Below, one piece after another: positions 38,378 through 42,363 of a DNA stretch of 64,000 bases. How positions within the stretch are numbered: position 1 is the stretch's first letter; every line of letters begins with the position of its first letter. The notes under the pieces were generated by a model. The model worked only from the letters and a program-made list of their open reading frames with translations. It had not been told where the DNA came from and searched no databases. The position numbers and the translations under genes were made by a program. This DNA comes from Hoyosella subflava DQS3-9A1 (GTDB taxonomy: Bacteria > Actinomycetota > Actinomycetes > Mycobacteriales > Mycobacteriaceae): assembly GCF_000214175.1 (NCBI RefSeq), contig NC_015564.1:3968001-4032000 (forward strand). The letters run 5' to 3'.

Positions 38378-39583
38378 GTGACGCGAAACAACCGCAGCCG
38401 CGCCGAACTCAGAGCCGCGTACGACTCGGCCACTCGCAACATCGATCCACCTTGCGCGATCGTCGATCTCGACGCATTCGACATGAACCTGCAGGATCTC
38501 ACGCGCCGCGCCGAGGGCCTCCCGATTCGCGTAGCGAGCAAGTCACTGCGCTGCCGCACCCTCCTCGCCCGGGCCCTCGATCACCCTGGTGTGCGCGGAG
38601 TTCTCGCATATTCCCTACGCGAGGCGCTGTGGCTGCACGAACACAGCGCCAGCGACGACATCCTGGTTGCTTACCCGACGGTAGACCGGAGTGCACTTGC
38701 TCGTCTTGCAGCGGACGACGCGGCTCGGGCACACATCACGCTGATGGTGGACTCGGGCGAACACCTCAACTTCATCGAGGATGTTCTGAACCCCGGGCAC
38801 CCTGTGATTCGGGTTGCTCTCGAACTGGATGTTTCGTGGCGACCGCTGAAAGGCCTCCATCTCGGCGCCCGCCGCTCACCGATTCACACGCCCGGCGCAG
38901 CCGCGGCACTTGCTGCCACGATCACGTCCAGGACTGGCTATGCGCTCGTCGGCGTCATGGGGTACGAAGGCCAGATCGCCGGCGTCGGCGACAAGGATGC
39001 TGGCCTCAAGTCGCTCGCGCTGCGCCGCATTCAATCGGCGTCCGCTCTGGAACTAGCCGAGCGTCGCAGTGCCGCAGTCGAGCGTGTCCGAGCGTTCGCT
39101 GACCTCGAGTTCGTCAACGGCGGCGGTACAGGCAGCGTCGAAACAACGCGACAAGACCCCTCCGTCACCGAGATCGCCGCAGGCTCAGGCCTCGTTGGCC
39201 CCGCGTTGTTCGACCACTACACACGGTTCACGCCGCAGCCCGCGCTACTGTACGCCCTGCCGGTCGTGCGAAAGCCGCGTCATGATATCGCCACACTTTT
39301 CGCCGGCGGCTACCTCGCGTCCGGCGCCGCGGACGGCTCCCGGCTCCCCGTTCCATGGCTTCCGGAAGGACTCCGCCTCGGCATCATGGAGGGTGCGGGT
39401 GAAGTCCAGACACCCGTATTCGGAGCGGGCGACCTCGCCATCGGCGACCGCGTGTGGATGCGCCACGCCAAGGCCGGCGAACTGGCCGAGAGGTTTAACG
39501 AATACCACCTGGTGCACAGCAGTAGCGCAGCTCTGTGGCGTACGGTCCCCACGTACCGGGGCGAAGGAGTCAACTGGGGGTAA
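38378..39583 (+). CDS. PLP-dependent amino-acid deaminase/aldolase (alanine-racemase-N fold)
   Basis: A 401-residue enzyme. PLP Lys in IRVASKSLRCR at about residue 50, barrel strands GVLAYSLREALWLH and ALVGVMGYEGQIAG, and the phosphate-binding FVNGGGTGSVE. Matches the D-threonine-aldolase/deaminase group. GTG 38378. It is beside the ALO-type oxidase, an arrangement common in actinomycetes; the biological substrate is not known to me. Confidence 0.83.
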   Translation: MTRNNRSRAELRAAYDSATRNIDPPCAIVDLDAFDMNLQDLTRRAEGLPIRVASKSLRCRTLLARALDHPGVRGVLAYSLREALWLHEHSASDDILVAYPTVDRSALARLAADDAARAHITLMVDSGEHLNFIEDVLNPGHPVIRVALELDVSWRPLKGLHLGARRSPIHTPGAAAALAATITSRTGYALVGVMGYEGQIAGVGDKDAGLKSLALRRIQSASALELAERRSAAVERVRAFADLEFVNGGGTGSVETTRQDPSVTEIAAGSGLVGPALFDHYTRFTPQPALLYALPVVRKPRHDIATLFAGGYLASGAADGSRLPVPWLPEGLRLGIMEGAGEVQTPVFGAGDLAIGDRVWMRHAKAGELAERFNEYHLVHSSSAALWRTVPTYRGEGVNWG

Positions 39584-39615
39584 GACACCGCACGCACGCA
39601 TGCTCGAATAGCCGT

Positions 39616-40245
39616 ATGGCTCCTACCATGACGGTGTACGACGCGATCCGCCTGCGGCGCGATGTTCGCGCGGAATTCTCTGGAGAAACGATCGGCGATG
39701 CGGCACTGACACGGATCCTGGACGCGGCGCACCGGGCCCCCAGCGTAGGCAACACCCAGCCTTGGGATTTCGTGATCGTGCAGGATCCCAGCCGGCTCCG
39801 CGAGTTCGCAGCGCACGTCGAACACCGGCGGGACCGATTTGCCGCTTCCCTGCCACCGGAACAGCGTGATGTGTTCAACCCGATCAAGATCGAAGGAATT
39901 CAGGAAAGCGGTACCGGAATCGTGGTTACCTACGATCCTGATCGCGGCGGGCCGCACGTTCTCGGCAGGCATACTGTCGAGGACACCGGGCTGTTCTCCA
40001 CCGTTCTCGCTATTCAGAACCTGTGGCTCGCGGCTGTCGCTGAAAGAGTGGGCGTCGGGTGGGTGTCTTTCTACGACGAGGAATTCCTTGCCGATTTCGT
40101 AGGCGCGTCCGCGCCAGTGCGTCCAGTCGCCTGGCTCTGTGTTGGCCCCGTAACGGGATTCCAGCACACCCCGGATCTCGAGCGTTTCGGCTGGCGGTCC
40201 CGGCGGCCACTGAGCGACGCGGTGCACCGAGATCGACTTCGTTGA
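39616..40245 (+). CDS. bluB: 5,6-dimethylbenzimidazole synthase (BluB)
   Basis: A 209-residue nitroreductase-fold enzyme that breaks reduced FMN with O2 to form the lower ligand of vitamin B12. RRDVRAEFSG, HRAPSVGNTQPWDFV, TYDPDRGGPH and NLWLAAVAERVGVGWVSFYDE match BluB. ATG 39616 is chosen; ATG 39628 is four codons later. It starts 32 bases after the aldolase gene and has a terminator right behind it. Confidence 0.88.
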   Translation: MAPTMTVYDAIRLRRDVRAEFSGETIGDAALTRILDAAHRAPSVGNTQPWDFVIVQDPSRLREFAAHVEHRRDRFAASLPPEQRDVFNPIKIEGIQESGTGIVVTYDPDRGGPHVLGRHTVEDTGLFSTVLAIQNLWLAAVAERVGVGWVSFYDEEFLADFVGASAPVRPVAWLCVGPVTGFQHTPDLERFGWRSRRPLSDAVHRDRLR

Positions 40246-40269: not shown

Positions 40270-40287
40270 TTGTGACAAGCCTCACAA
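40270..40287. promoter_or_regulatory. Perfect CRP/GlxR-type site
   Basis: TTGTGACAAGCCTCACAA is a perfect 18-bp palindrome containing TGTGA-N6-TCACA, the CRP/GlxR consensus. It lies 73 bases before the start of the large membrane-protein gene, so carbon-state (cAMP) control of that gene is likely. Confidence 0.75.
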
Positions 40288-40359: not shown

Positions 40360-42363
40360 ATGTCGCAGCGAATCTCGGCTCTTAGCCTCGCTCAGGAGGC
40401 ATTACCTGGAGCTGGCGGAGCCGCGGTGGACCAGATCATCATCGTGCTCATCGCAAACGCCGTTATCTTCACGCCCCTGGTGTGGTTCGTGCTGCGGGAA
40501 CGTAGCGGACATCGCACCGCCATCGGGCGAGCTGCTGACTGGATAGCGAAAAAAGAAGGAATGCCGCGCTGGTTCAGTCTTCCGGTGTACGTGATGATCG
40601 CTGCGCTGCTGTCTGCGGGATTCGGTGTCGCATGGGACATTCCAATCCATATGCAGGATGGCCGGGACGACGGCCCCTTGGCAAACCCAGCCCACTACTT
40701 CATTTTCTTCGGCATCGTCGGCTTCTTCGTCGCAGGCGTGATCAGCATGACGCTCGTGTCGAAGCATCTTCCCGCGCGCACCTTCCGGATCCGCGACGAC
40801 TGGCACGCCCCGATGGGGAGCATGGTGATCGTGGCTGCAGGCCTCATTGCGCTCCTTGGCTTTCCTCTCGACGATCTGTGGCACCGTCTTTTCGGCCAGG
40901 ACGTGACGCAGTGGGGGCCAACCCACACGATGATGATTGGCGGAGCGGTCACCTGCGTTCTTGGTGGCGTTCTGCTCCATTCGGAGGCGCGCCAAATTGG
41001 GGCACCCGGAACGCTGGGGTTAGGCGGGCGGATTCGCGGGGTCTTCCTGCTGGCGACCTGCATCATCCCGTTCTACTTTCTAGCGGAGTTCGAATTAGGG
41101 CTGCCGCAGTTCCCCGCCGCCACGCAGTTCATCCTTGCGGGTCTGCTTACGGCGTGGATCTTTACCGCGTGCCGCCGGTACTTCGGCCCCGGTGGCGCAC
41201 TGTTCGCGTGGGCCTTCTATCTCGTCGCACAACTGTTCCTGATCGTGACGGTCAGCCTGATACCCGGCGTGCTGGTATCTCAGATGCTGCTGTTCTTGCC
41301 CGCCGCGATCATCGTTGAACTAGTCGCACTGGTGATTCCGCCCGCCCGCGGGATCGTGTTCGGACTCGTGTGCGGGGCACTGATCGGAACCGTCGGTCTC
41401 TACGCAGAATGGCTCTGGACGCACGTCTATATGCCAATTCCGCAGCCGCTGCCGTCGCACACGTTGCCGCTGATGTTGTCGGTAGGAACGGCTGCCGCGA
41501 TTGGCGGGGCACTCATCGGGCATTGGCACGCTCAGCAACTGCAGCGGGTCGAGGCACGCGGAAACGTGACCTCTCGGCTGCAGGACATCACCTTCGCATC
41601 CCGGCCACTGCAGACTTGCTACAGCTACTGGCTGCGAAACCAAACCCCGACACCGGCCATCGGCGGATCGCCGAACTACTGGCAGCGCAACGGATACGTA
41701 GCTGTGGGCGGCGTCATTTTCCTCGCTCTCATGACGGCGTTCGCACCCCCGTCAATGAAGGACGGCGTGTTCGCAGATGTCGAGTTGAGTCAGGACTGCG
41801 ACGGCGACACTATCTGCAGTGCTTTCGTGACAATTACGATGGACCCCGCGGAATCCGATAGGGCGATTTGGCTGCATGCTTATTACTGGCAGGGCAAGGT
41901 CGGCACCGAAGGTGAGCTCCCCACCGATCCGGCGAGCGGCGCTCCCGGGATAATGCGGGTGGCGATGCTGCCGACCGGCGAGCCCGGCCAGTTCCGCTCC
42001 GAATACGAGATGCCCATGTATGGCGGCGGGAAGACACAGATCCGCCTGCACCAGGCGCCCACAATCATGCTCAACCTGCCGCTTTACGCCCCTGACGACC
42101 CGGAGATCACGACTGACATCGGTAGGCAGATCGTGGCTACCTCCGGCGAGCGTTACGAGTTCATCTACGAACCCGAGTTCCTGCAGCGCGAAACCAAAGA
42201 CTATGTTCCTGGCTGGCTGTGGACAGTGGGCTACACCGTAGTTTTGATCCTCTGGCTGGTGACCCTGGTCTTCTACGTATGGCTGTACAGCCAGGCCGCT
42301 TTCGGTTCAACTCCCGCTGCGCGAGCTCAGCCGCGCCCGCAGCACAAACCGGCCGACGCCTAA
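40360..42363 (+). CDS. Large multipass membrane protein with PmoC-like Asp/Trp-His/His motif; function unknown
   Basis: A 667-residue protein with about ten membrane helices, a soluble domain (about residues 465-620) and a final helix with a Pro/Gln-rich tail. Charged or His residues sit at helix edges: WDIPIHMQDGRDD (92-104), NPAHYF, RDDWH (145-149) and DDLWHRLFGQDVTQWGPTH (171-189). The last resembles, from memory, the D-x2-WH-x5-D ... P-(S/T)-H stretch in PmoC/AmoC that holds a copper or zinc site (Asp, His, His), with one extra residue here. It is not a standard PmoC (about 270 residues), and no pmoA/pmoB is present. A perfect GlxR-type site lies upstream. No family name offered. Confidence 0.85.
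   Translation: MSQRISALSLAQEALPGAGGAAVDQIIIVLIANAVIFTPLVWFVLRERSGHRTAIGRAADWIAKKEGMPRWFSLPVYVMIAALLSAGFGVAWDIPIHMQDGRDDGPLANPAHYFIFFGIVGFFVAGVISMTLVSKHLPARTFRIRDDWHAPMGSMVIVAAGLIALLGFPLDDLWHRLFGQDVTQWGPTHTMMIGGAVTCVLGGVLLHSEARQIGAPGTLGLGGRIRGVFLLATCIIPFYFLAEFELGLPQFPAATQFILAGLLTAWIFTACRRYFGPGGALFAWAFYLVAQLFLIVTVSLIPGVLVSQMLLFLPAAIIVELVALVIPPARGIVFGLVCGALIGTVGLYAEWLWTHVYMPIPQPLPSHTLPLMLSVGTAAAIGGALIGHWHAQQLQRVEARGNVTSRLQDITFASRPLQTCYSYWLRNQTPTPAIGGSPNYWQRNGYVAVGGVIFLALMTAFAPPSMKDGVFADVELSQDCDGDTICSAFVTITMDPAESDRAIWLHAYYWQGKVGTEGELPTDPASGAPGIMRVAMLPTGEPGQFRSEYEMPMYGGGKTQIRLHQAPTIMLNLPLYAPDDPEITTDIGRQIVATSGERYEFIYEPEFLQRETKDYVPGWLWTVGYTVVLILWLVTLVFYVWLYSQAAFGSTPAARAQPRPQHKPADA

Follow-up and report, generated by a model that had tools for sequence, protein, structure and literature searches.

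In particulate methane monooxygenase (pMMO), the ligands of the CuC site of PmoC are Asp156, His160 and His173, with Arg165 close by, and those of the CuD site are Asn227, His231 and His245. According to the account in PMC12576850, from which these assignments are taken, the two sites are never occupied together in the cryo-electron microscopy structures considered there, and it is debated which of them does the chemistry. We checked the ligand numbering on the sequence of 1yew_C; the resulting spacings in PmoC are D0, H+4, R+9, D+10, P+15 and H+17 for CuC, and N0, H+4, E+10, P+16 and H+18 for CuD. To our knowledge, PmoC is known only within complexes of the PmoCAB or AmoCAB type. Here we analyse a gene of Hoyosella subflava DQS3-9A1 that lies at positions 40360..42363 (+ strand, ATG start) of a 64,000-nt stretch of contig NC_015564.1, called the window below. 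It encodes a membrane protein of 667 amino acids with a C-terminal beta domain, in which the initial annotation had noticed a motif resembling the PmoC/AmoC metal site. The protein appears to be a distant relative of PmoC/AmoC, and it probably binds copper and serves in extracytoplasmic copper handling.

The conserved core, delimited by the 57-sequence alignment A6 and the AlphaFold2 model, comprises residues 66-258 (40555..41133, +). It holds two tandem copies of one half-site. In each copy, an acidic residue followed after three positions by His (acid-x3-His) stands at a helix end, another acidic residue is found ten positions downstream of the first one, and the helix that follows has Pro-x-His at its start. 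Half-site 1 (residues 92-112; 40633..40695, +) has the spacing D93, H97 (+4), R102 (+9), D103 (+10), P110 (+17) and H112 (+19), and conservation and hhalign point to CuC as its equivalent. It follows the D-x3-H-x4-R-D...P-x-H pattern of CuC, but its last His is at +19 instead of +17, i.e. there are two extra residues; in the relatives at loci L024 and L025 the spacing is identical to that of CuC, with the last His at +17. Half-site 2 (residues 171-189, including D172; 40870..40926, +) has the spacing D171, H175 (+4), D181 (+10), P187 (+16) and H189 (+18). This equals the spacing of CuD (+4, +18) exactly, but Asp replaces Asn227; the correspondence is also based on the register with the N-x3-H-x13-H of HmoC in the local alignment described below. 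The initial annotation had quoted D171, D172, W174, H175, D181, P187 and H189, which are all found at the positions given, and had equated D171/H175/H189 with CuC. This assignment has to be revised, since the spacing is that of CuD and the equivalent of CuC lies upstream, at D93/H97/R102/H112. The extra residue between the two His that had been remarked upon arose because the motif was compared with CuC and not with CuD.

For the analysis of conservation, relatives were collected from GTDB genomes, and the best 79 of at least 555 were used for all locus counts of 79 given here; alignment A2 comprises the window protein and 56 of these loci, kept below 88% identity. All 57 aligned members share W92, D93, H97, G101, R102, D103 and H112 around half-site 1, D171, D172, H175, R176, G179, D181, T183, G186, P187, T188 and H189 around half-site 2, and E209, E243 and Q250, while P110 is kept in 50 of the 57. 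D171, H175 and H189, whose loss in homologues had been named as the observation that would speak against a metal site, are thus invariant. The clusters WDIPIH (residues 92-97), DGRDD (100-104) and RDDWH (145-149), suspected earlier of contributing further ligands, are all present, and W92, D93, H97, R102 and D103 are invariant, but H149 is not. Across the 34 sequences of all groups in profile A7 (34 of 36 core sequences), W35, P105, D107, H111, G115, D117, P123 and H125 (A7 numbering) are fully conserved, and D36, H40, R45, D46, P51 and H53 nearly so.

A doubled signature, [DN]x3Hx5[DE]x4-7PxH with the two copies 50-100 residues apart, is present in 69 of the 79 members and in 90 of 97 viral PmoC/AmoC proteins. 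It was found in 0 of 1168 other open reading frames (ORFs) of the same loci and in 0 of 23,700 shuffled sequences, which argues against the chance similarity that had been considered initially, with the reservation that knowledge of both families preceded the definition of the signature. Neither a known family nor a chance motif accounts for the window protein. Comparison of half-site 1 with half-site 2 by hhalign gave a probability (Prob) of 88.9 (E 2.4e-6, 0 of 60 decoys), and therefore the two copies result from an internal duplication.

Judging from these comparisons of sequences, the window protein belongs to an unnamed actinobacterial family, so that the earlier suggestion of a new membrane protein family holds up; metal binding itself is putative. 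In the GTDB genomes, 555 of at least 593 pattern-matching stretches encode relatives, and the best 79 loci include Hoyosella, Actinophytocola, Haloechinothrix, Nocardioides, Amycolatopsis, Kribbella, Solirubrobacter, Actinomadura, Mycobacterium, Conexibacter and others. Family matches were obtained in 27 of 101 related genomes, and they are full or near-full length in 22; the other five (G027, G064, G075, G087 and G091) have weak matches only. Of 296 actinobacterial genomes sampled from 199 genera, 35 genomes in 26 genera contain a match to the core profile, and none of 17 viral stretches that matched a pattern encodes a relative. Proteins of the window type form subfamily I. Shorter relatives were grouped by eye into subfamily II (L025, L220, L221), subfamily III (L024, L026-L028, L213-L219) and other types (L222-L224 in G109/G132/G149; the short proteins L274 and L276 in G504 and G446). 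In hhalign, subfamily I is related to the first weak relatives (A4) with Prob 98.7 (E 3.3e-16). In searches of the open PMC literature, which did not extend to subscription journals or preprints, no listed title or abstract start describes the family. The window protein is 97% identical to its counterpart in Hoyosella altamirensis, and a second gene copy in the same genome, ~840 kb away, encodes a protein 56% identical to it. Three tandem gene copies are present in Nocardioides jejuensis and N. phosphati (L043:1373-7488, L044:9896-16057).

Profile comparisons connect the family with PmoC/AmoC. The hhalign results depend on choice, because the profile was broadened with other subfamilies after weak starts, the first weak relatives having reached only Prob 7.7 against AmoC, which is too little. 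The superfamily core matches AmoC with Prob 74.7 (E 2.6e-5; score 41.6 versus a best of 23.8 in 60 decoys) and a more diverse AmoC set with Prob 68.4 (E 4.7e-5; 40.9 versus 30.6 in 60 decoys), and A7 versus A3 gave Prob 81.9 (E 1.1e-5). For half-site 1 versus the CuC half of AmoC, the values are Prob 93.0, E 3.4e-7 and a score of 45.0 versus a decoy best of 18.0 (0 of 40). This match is positive in seven of seven family subsets (Prob 7.1 to 83.4, 0 of 40 decoys each) and also with subfamily I alone (Prob 43.5, E 2.4e-4, 0 of 40 decoys). Cross-comparisons of half-site 2 with the CuC half (E 0.0072) and of half-site 1 with the CuD half (E 0.055) were each reached by 0 of 40 decoys. A local alignment of the core with a single HmoC (M. 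chubuense) keeps the two half-sites in register over 102 columns (E 3.7e-4; 0 of 40 shuffles).

The HMMER profile A7, which was built without AmoC, detects AmoC/HmoC in five of eight records in which such proteins are present (E 2.4e-8 to 9.8e-5, in small records). In a ranking with unfiltered scoring and a database size of 177,635, 13 of 13 AmoC/HmoC proteins scored 7.9-27.0 bits (best E 3.1e-5), compared with at most 6.0 bits for 1168 background ORFs and at most 7.2 bits for 260 shuffles; 13 reversed sequences were unlisted. The match spans both half-sites in three actinobacterial HmoC proteins (without bias correction; W01 and W03 also in the record search). The kinship with PmoC/AmoC that had been seen by eye in the motif is thus also reached by profile methods, and distant homology is, on these grounds, quite likely, albeit not proven. 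An AmoC match in G122 (L031, E 3.9e-4) lies in a protein that resembles a LivH-like permease by eye and was rejected as chance.

AlphaFold2 predicted the full window protein with a mean predicted local distance difference test (pLDDT) value of 88.8 and a predicted template modelling score of 0.90 (57 sequences); the pLDDT of residues 66-258 alone is 86.8. In the model, D93/H97 are near the end of helix 70-99 and H112 is at the start of helix 110-131; likewise, D171/H175 are near the end of helix 152-178 and H189 is at the start of helix 187-212. The C-terminal beta domain comprises residues ~466-616 (41755..42207, +), according to the secondary structure of the model, and would be located outside by the positive-inside rule. 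The loops around residues 46-70 and 135-145 are rich in Arg and Lys, suggesting an outward orientation of the half-sites, of E243 and of the beta domain. The half-sites may be expected to bind copper at the outer face of the membrane, and the bound copper could serve extracytoplasmic handling, i.e. capture, oxidation or hand-over. The beta domains of the relatives L220 (E 0.007) and L228 (E 0.3) resemble FixH (PF05751), but these matches are below the cut-off, and none was obtained for the window protein.

The genes around plasmid-borne relatives are compatible with copper as the metal. Eight plasmid records contain a relative, and only the M. vanbaalenii copy is of subfamily I. Copper or heavy-metal genes lie within ~10 kb of seven of the eight (a raw count with no base rate). 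On the M. vanbaalenii plasmid, CopC is encoded directly upstream, together with DUF305 and a cytochrome oxidase assembly protein; on that of M. chubuense, a heavy-metal-associated protein and a heavy-metal ATPase are encoded near the relative; and on that of M. aubagnense, a YHS protein adjoins it and a heavy-metal ATPase is nearby. The Leifsonia shinshuensis plasmid has an adjoining metal-sensitive regulator, heavy-metal ATPases, a multicopper oxidase and a copper-binding protein. The Streptomyces plasmids of FR1 and F2 carry an identical relative with a multicopper oxidase, a cupredoxin and DUF305 nearby, and the S. mirabilis plasmid has a cupredoxin, a heavy-metal-associated protein and a heavy-metal ATPase. 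No copper or heavy-metal genes were found within ~10 kb on the Rubrobacter marinus plasmid, where the copy looks frame-broken. The relatives are labelled "hypothetical protein" in seven of the eight records and are unannotated in the eighth, that of Rubrobacter marinus. The L025 locus carries CopZ- and CopA-like genes. As separate observations, three Streptomyces plasmids have a gene for a DUF5134 protein in the vicinity of the relative (L282:14309-15172, L283:11609-12481, L284:14309-15172), and pMYCCH.01 of M. chubuense contains a true HmoCAB set as well as a family member, ~164 kb apart (L279:9590-11059, L258:3986-7049).

Two further proteins, labelled c1 and c3, are likely partners in many relatives. 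The first, c1, is a multi-helix protein of ~440 amino acids with invariant His and Asp/Glu residues (L038:14010-15332 and 35 other loci); it matches nothing in the PDB and is without a consistent Pfam match. "Fenitrothion hydrolase", a phrase that occurs in three papers, was considered as a name for c1 but set aside. The second, c3, is a short lipoprotein-like protein with HVHGY and ELH motifs, and its cupredoxin matches are all below the cut-off (Cupredoxin_1, E 0.05-0.15; NosZ C-terminal region, E 3.8e-4). c1 is present in 36 of the 79 loci, with c3 within 400 bases of it in 27; of the nine c1 loci without c3, eight are from Kribbella and one is from a genome labelled Streptomyces. The survey of c1 placement covered 25 target genes from 22 related genomes, a count that excludes the weak relatives L024-L028. 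In 15, c1 lies downstream on the same strand, 0.25-0.81 kb from the matched stretch, in the three Hoyosella paralogues it is at ~2.1 kb, and in one case it is upstream on the opposite strand. No c1 is nearby in the remaining six, among them the window gene and both of its Hoyosella orthologues. Among the 101 genomes, 21 have the target and c1, one only the target, six only c1 and 73 neither (Fisher p 2.3e-15, uncorrected for kinship). In H. subflava, c3 and c1 are beside the paralogue ~840 kb away and not beside the window copy, which is an unlinked second paralogue.

Several results weigh against a copper-handling relative of PmoC. In the profile comparisons, half-site 2 versus the CuD half lacks significance, as 6 of 40 decoys do at least as well, the likeness between the CuC and CuD halves of AmoC itself is undetectable (13 of 60 decoys reach it), and subfamily I alone versus AmoC is weak (Prob 2.5). 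A7 is silent in three of the eight records holding AmoC/HmoC, lists only four of 13 AmoC/HmoC proteins with default HMMER filters (best E 5.3e-4), and finds no AmoC among PDB sequences, the single hit being glutamate decarboxylase (E 0.52). In unfiltered scoring, some viral PmoC proteins obtain as little as 3.6 bits, inside the background, and when bias correction is switched off, background ORFs attain up to 20.9 bits versus 12.6-33.2 for AmoC/HmoC. The Pfam AmoC model appears for only two of 29 family proteins scanned, with varied E limits; these are L025 (E 0.11) and L220 (E 0.23), both of subfamily II and below the cut-off. The best relatives attain 12.3 and 11.2 bits, compared with a PmoC/AmoC cut-off of 26.7, and a loose PF04896 search (E up to 10) hit nothing but the family member in two of 12 family genomes (E 0.093 and 0.87) and also gave sub-cut-off matches in two of 14 control genomes. 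Searches of Pfam, NCBIfam and PDB sequences with the window protein gave nothing up to E 10. Foldseek of the full model and of a fragment against PDB, and against BFVD, gave 0 matches at E <= 0.001; PmoC is absent among the 50 matches listed of 259, 295 and 147 in three runs. Whereas several relatives lie inside copper resistance islands (CopC, CopA/CopZ, multicopper oxidase), tblastn of ten copper-island or neighbouring genes found them at 0 of the 79 chromosomal subfamily I loci, and they are not seen around the window copy either. Members in Nocardioides are located next to iron, manganese and nitrogen genes.

The window protein is no member of PmoC/AmoC as annotated from sequence, because the curated cut-offs and the PmoA/PmoB context fail. 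It shares with PmoC/AmoC/HmoC (PF04896, TIGR03078) ligand patterns of the CuC and CuD type in the same order and with like spacing, Arg +9 in the first half-site, acid +10 and Pro-x-His in both, and the helix-loop-helix placement of the site residues. In contrast, it has 667 amino acids, extra helices, a beta domain predicted to lie outside, Asp in place of Asn227 and two extra residues in half-site 1, and the family is below the Pfam/NCBIfam cut-offs, lacks PmoA/PmoB and has no fold match among those listed. The earlier remark that no pmoA/pmoB lies nearby extends to the whole H. subflava genome, in which neither was found at E up to 1. PF02461 and PF04744 gave no match over the cut-off in eight genomes with the family, while a positive control record matches. 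c1 as a relative of PmoA and c3 as a relative of PmoB were also considered and rejected, as hhalign was not significant.

A catalytic role is unlikely in our estimation: in this case, O2 would be activated at the CuD-like site and the protein would act as a copper oxidase or monooxygenase, to which c3 would donate copper or electrons and for which c1 would provide a scaffold. The retention of both PmoC half-sites, the cupredoxin-like character of c3 and the joint occurrence of c1 and target in the 101 genomes are in its favour. However, PmoA/PmoB are absent from the eight genomes tested, c1 and c3 are unlike either of them, Asn227 of CuD is replaced by Asp, and homeostasis is a better fit to the copper-island contexts. 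That the family is a second kind of copper membrane oxygenase, as would follow, is equally doubtful. A broader proposal, which we consider possible yet rather improbable, is an unrecognised branch of the PmoC superfamily across Actinomycetota, in which the duplicated half-site polypeptide, c3 and c1 form an independent copper oxidase/oxygenase. If this were true, PmoC would share an ancestor with a copper-handling membrane protein. A relative with both half-sites but without PmoA/PmoB would be a simpler protein for testing the metal chemistry of CuC and CuD; it would bear on the origin of PmoC and offers a testable copper hypothesis for the family.

It is very unlikely that the sites bind Fe, Mn or Zn and that the protein handles this metal. 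Nocardioides members next to an iron-type uptake set of FecCD, ABC (ATP-binding cassette) and periplasmic binding protein genes (four loci) and to MntP would agree with it, but such contexts were seen only in Nocardioides and one related genome, and plasmid-borne relatives sit in copper/heavy-metal islands. In the four loci, a FecCD-type permease is encoded directly downstream (L046:3060-4097, L047:12126-16078, L050:12091-16050, L054:12097-16079), and genes for an ABC ATPase and a periplasmic binding protein are also present. Nitrogen genes are neighbours of this AmoC-like protein in three Nocardioides loci: an ammonium transporter and P-II are encoded after the gene at L045:3858-8483 and L048:10007-13910, while at L047:4889-12058 the genes for glutamine synthetase, GlnE and a manganese exporter come before it.

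Least probable of all is an Asp/His network for proton or ion movement or lipid chemistry with no metal site, the likeness to PmoC being local convergence at helix ends: the missing PmoC among the listed Foldseek matches, the silence of Pfam for the window protein and the lack of significance of half-site 2 alone would agree with this, but the same half-site order, R+9 in the first half-site, acid +10 and Pro-x-His, the one joint HmoC alignment and the detection of AmoC/HmoC by a profile made without AmoC speak against it.

The window copy has its own CRP/GlxR-type site. The palindrome TGTGA-N6-TCACA, TGTGACAAGCCTCACA, is located at 40271..40286 (+), 74-89 bases upstream of the ATG. The GlxR/CRP-type site assumed in the initial annotation is thus real; it is the sole perfect TGTGAN6TCACA in the 64 kb, compared with a mean of 0.04 in shuffles. 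In H. altamirensis the site is unchanged, and the one in Hoyosella sp. YIM 151337 contains one mismatch. The site is not a trait of the family, because only four of the 79 loci have a site with at most one mismatch.

On the opposite strand, the window gene is adjoined by genes for an ABC transporter and a multicopper oxidase of the twin-arginine translocation (Tat) type, both named by eye. The Tat multicopper oxidase, which had been noted 2.5 kb away in the initial annotation, was rejected as a partner, being a neighbour in only two of the 79 loci, both from Hoyosella. A nitroreductase-like gene lies beside both Hoyosella paralogues, at 39535-40245 of the window (by eye) and at L243:8491-9585 (Pfam Nitroreductase, E 1.8e-23).
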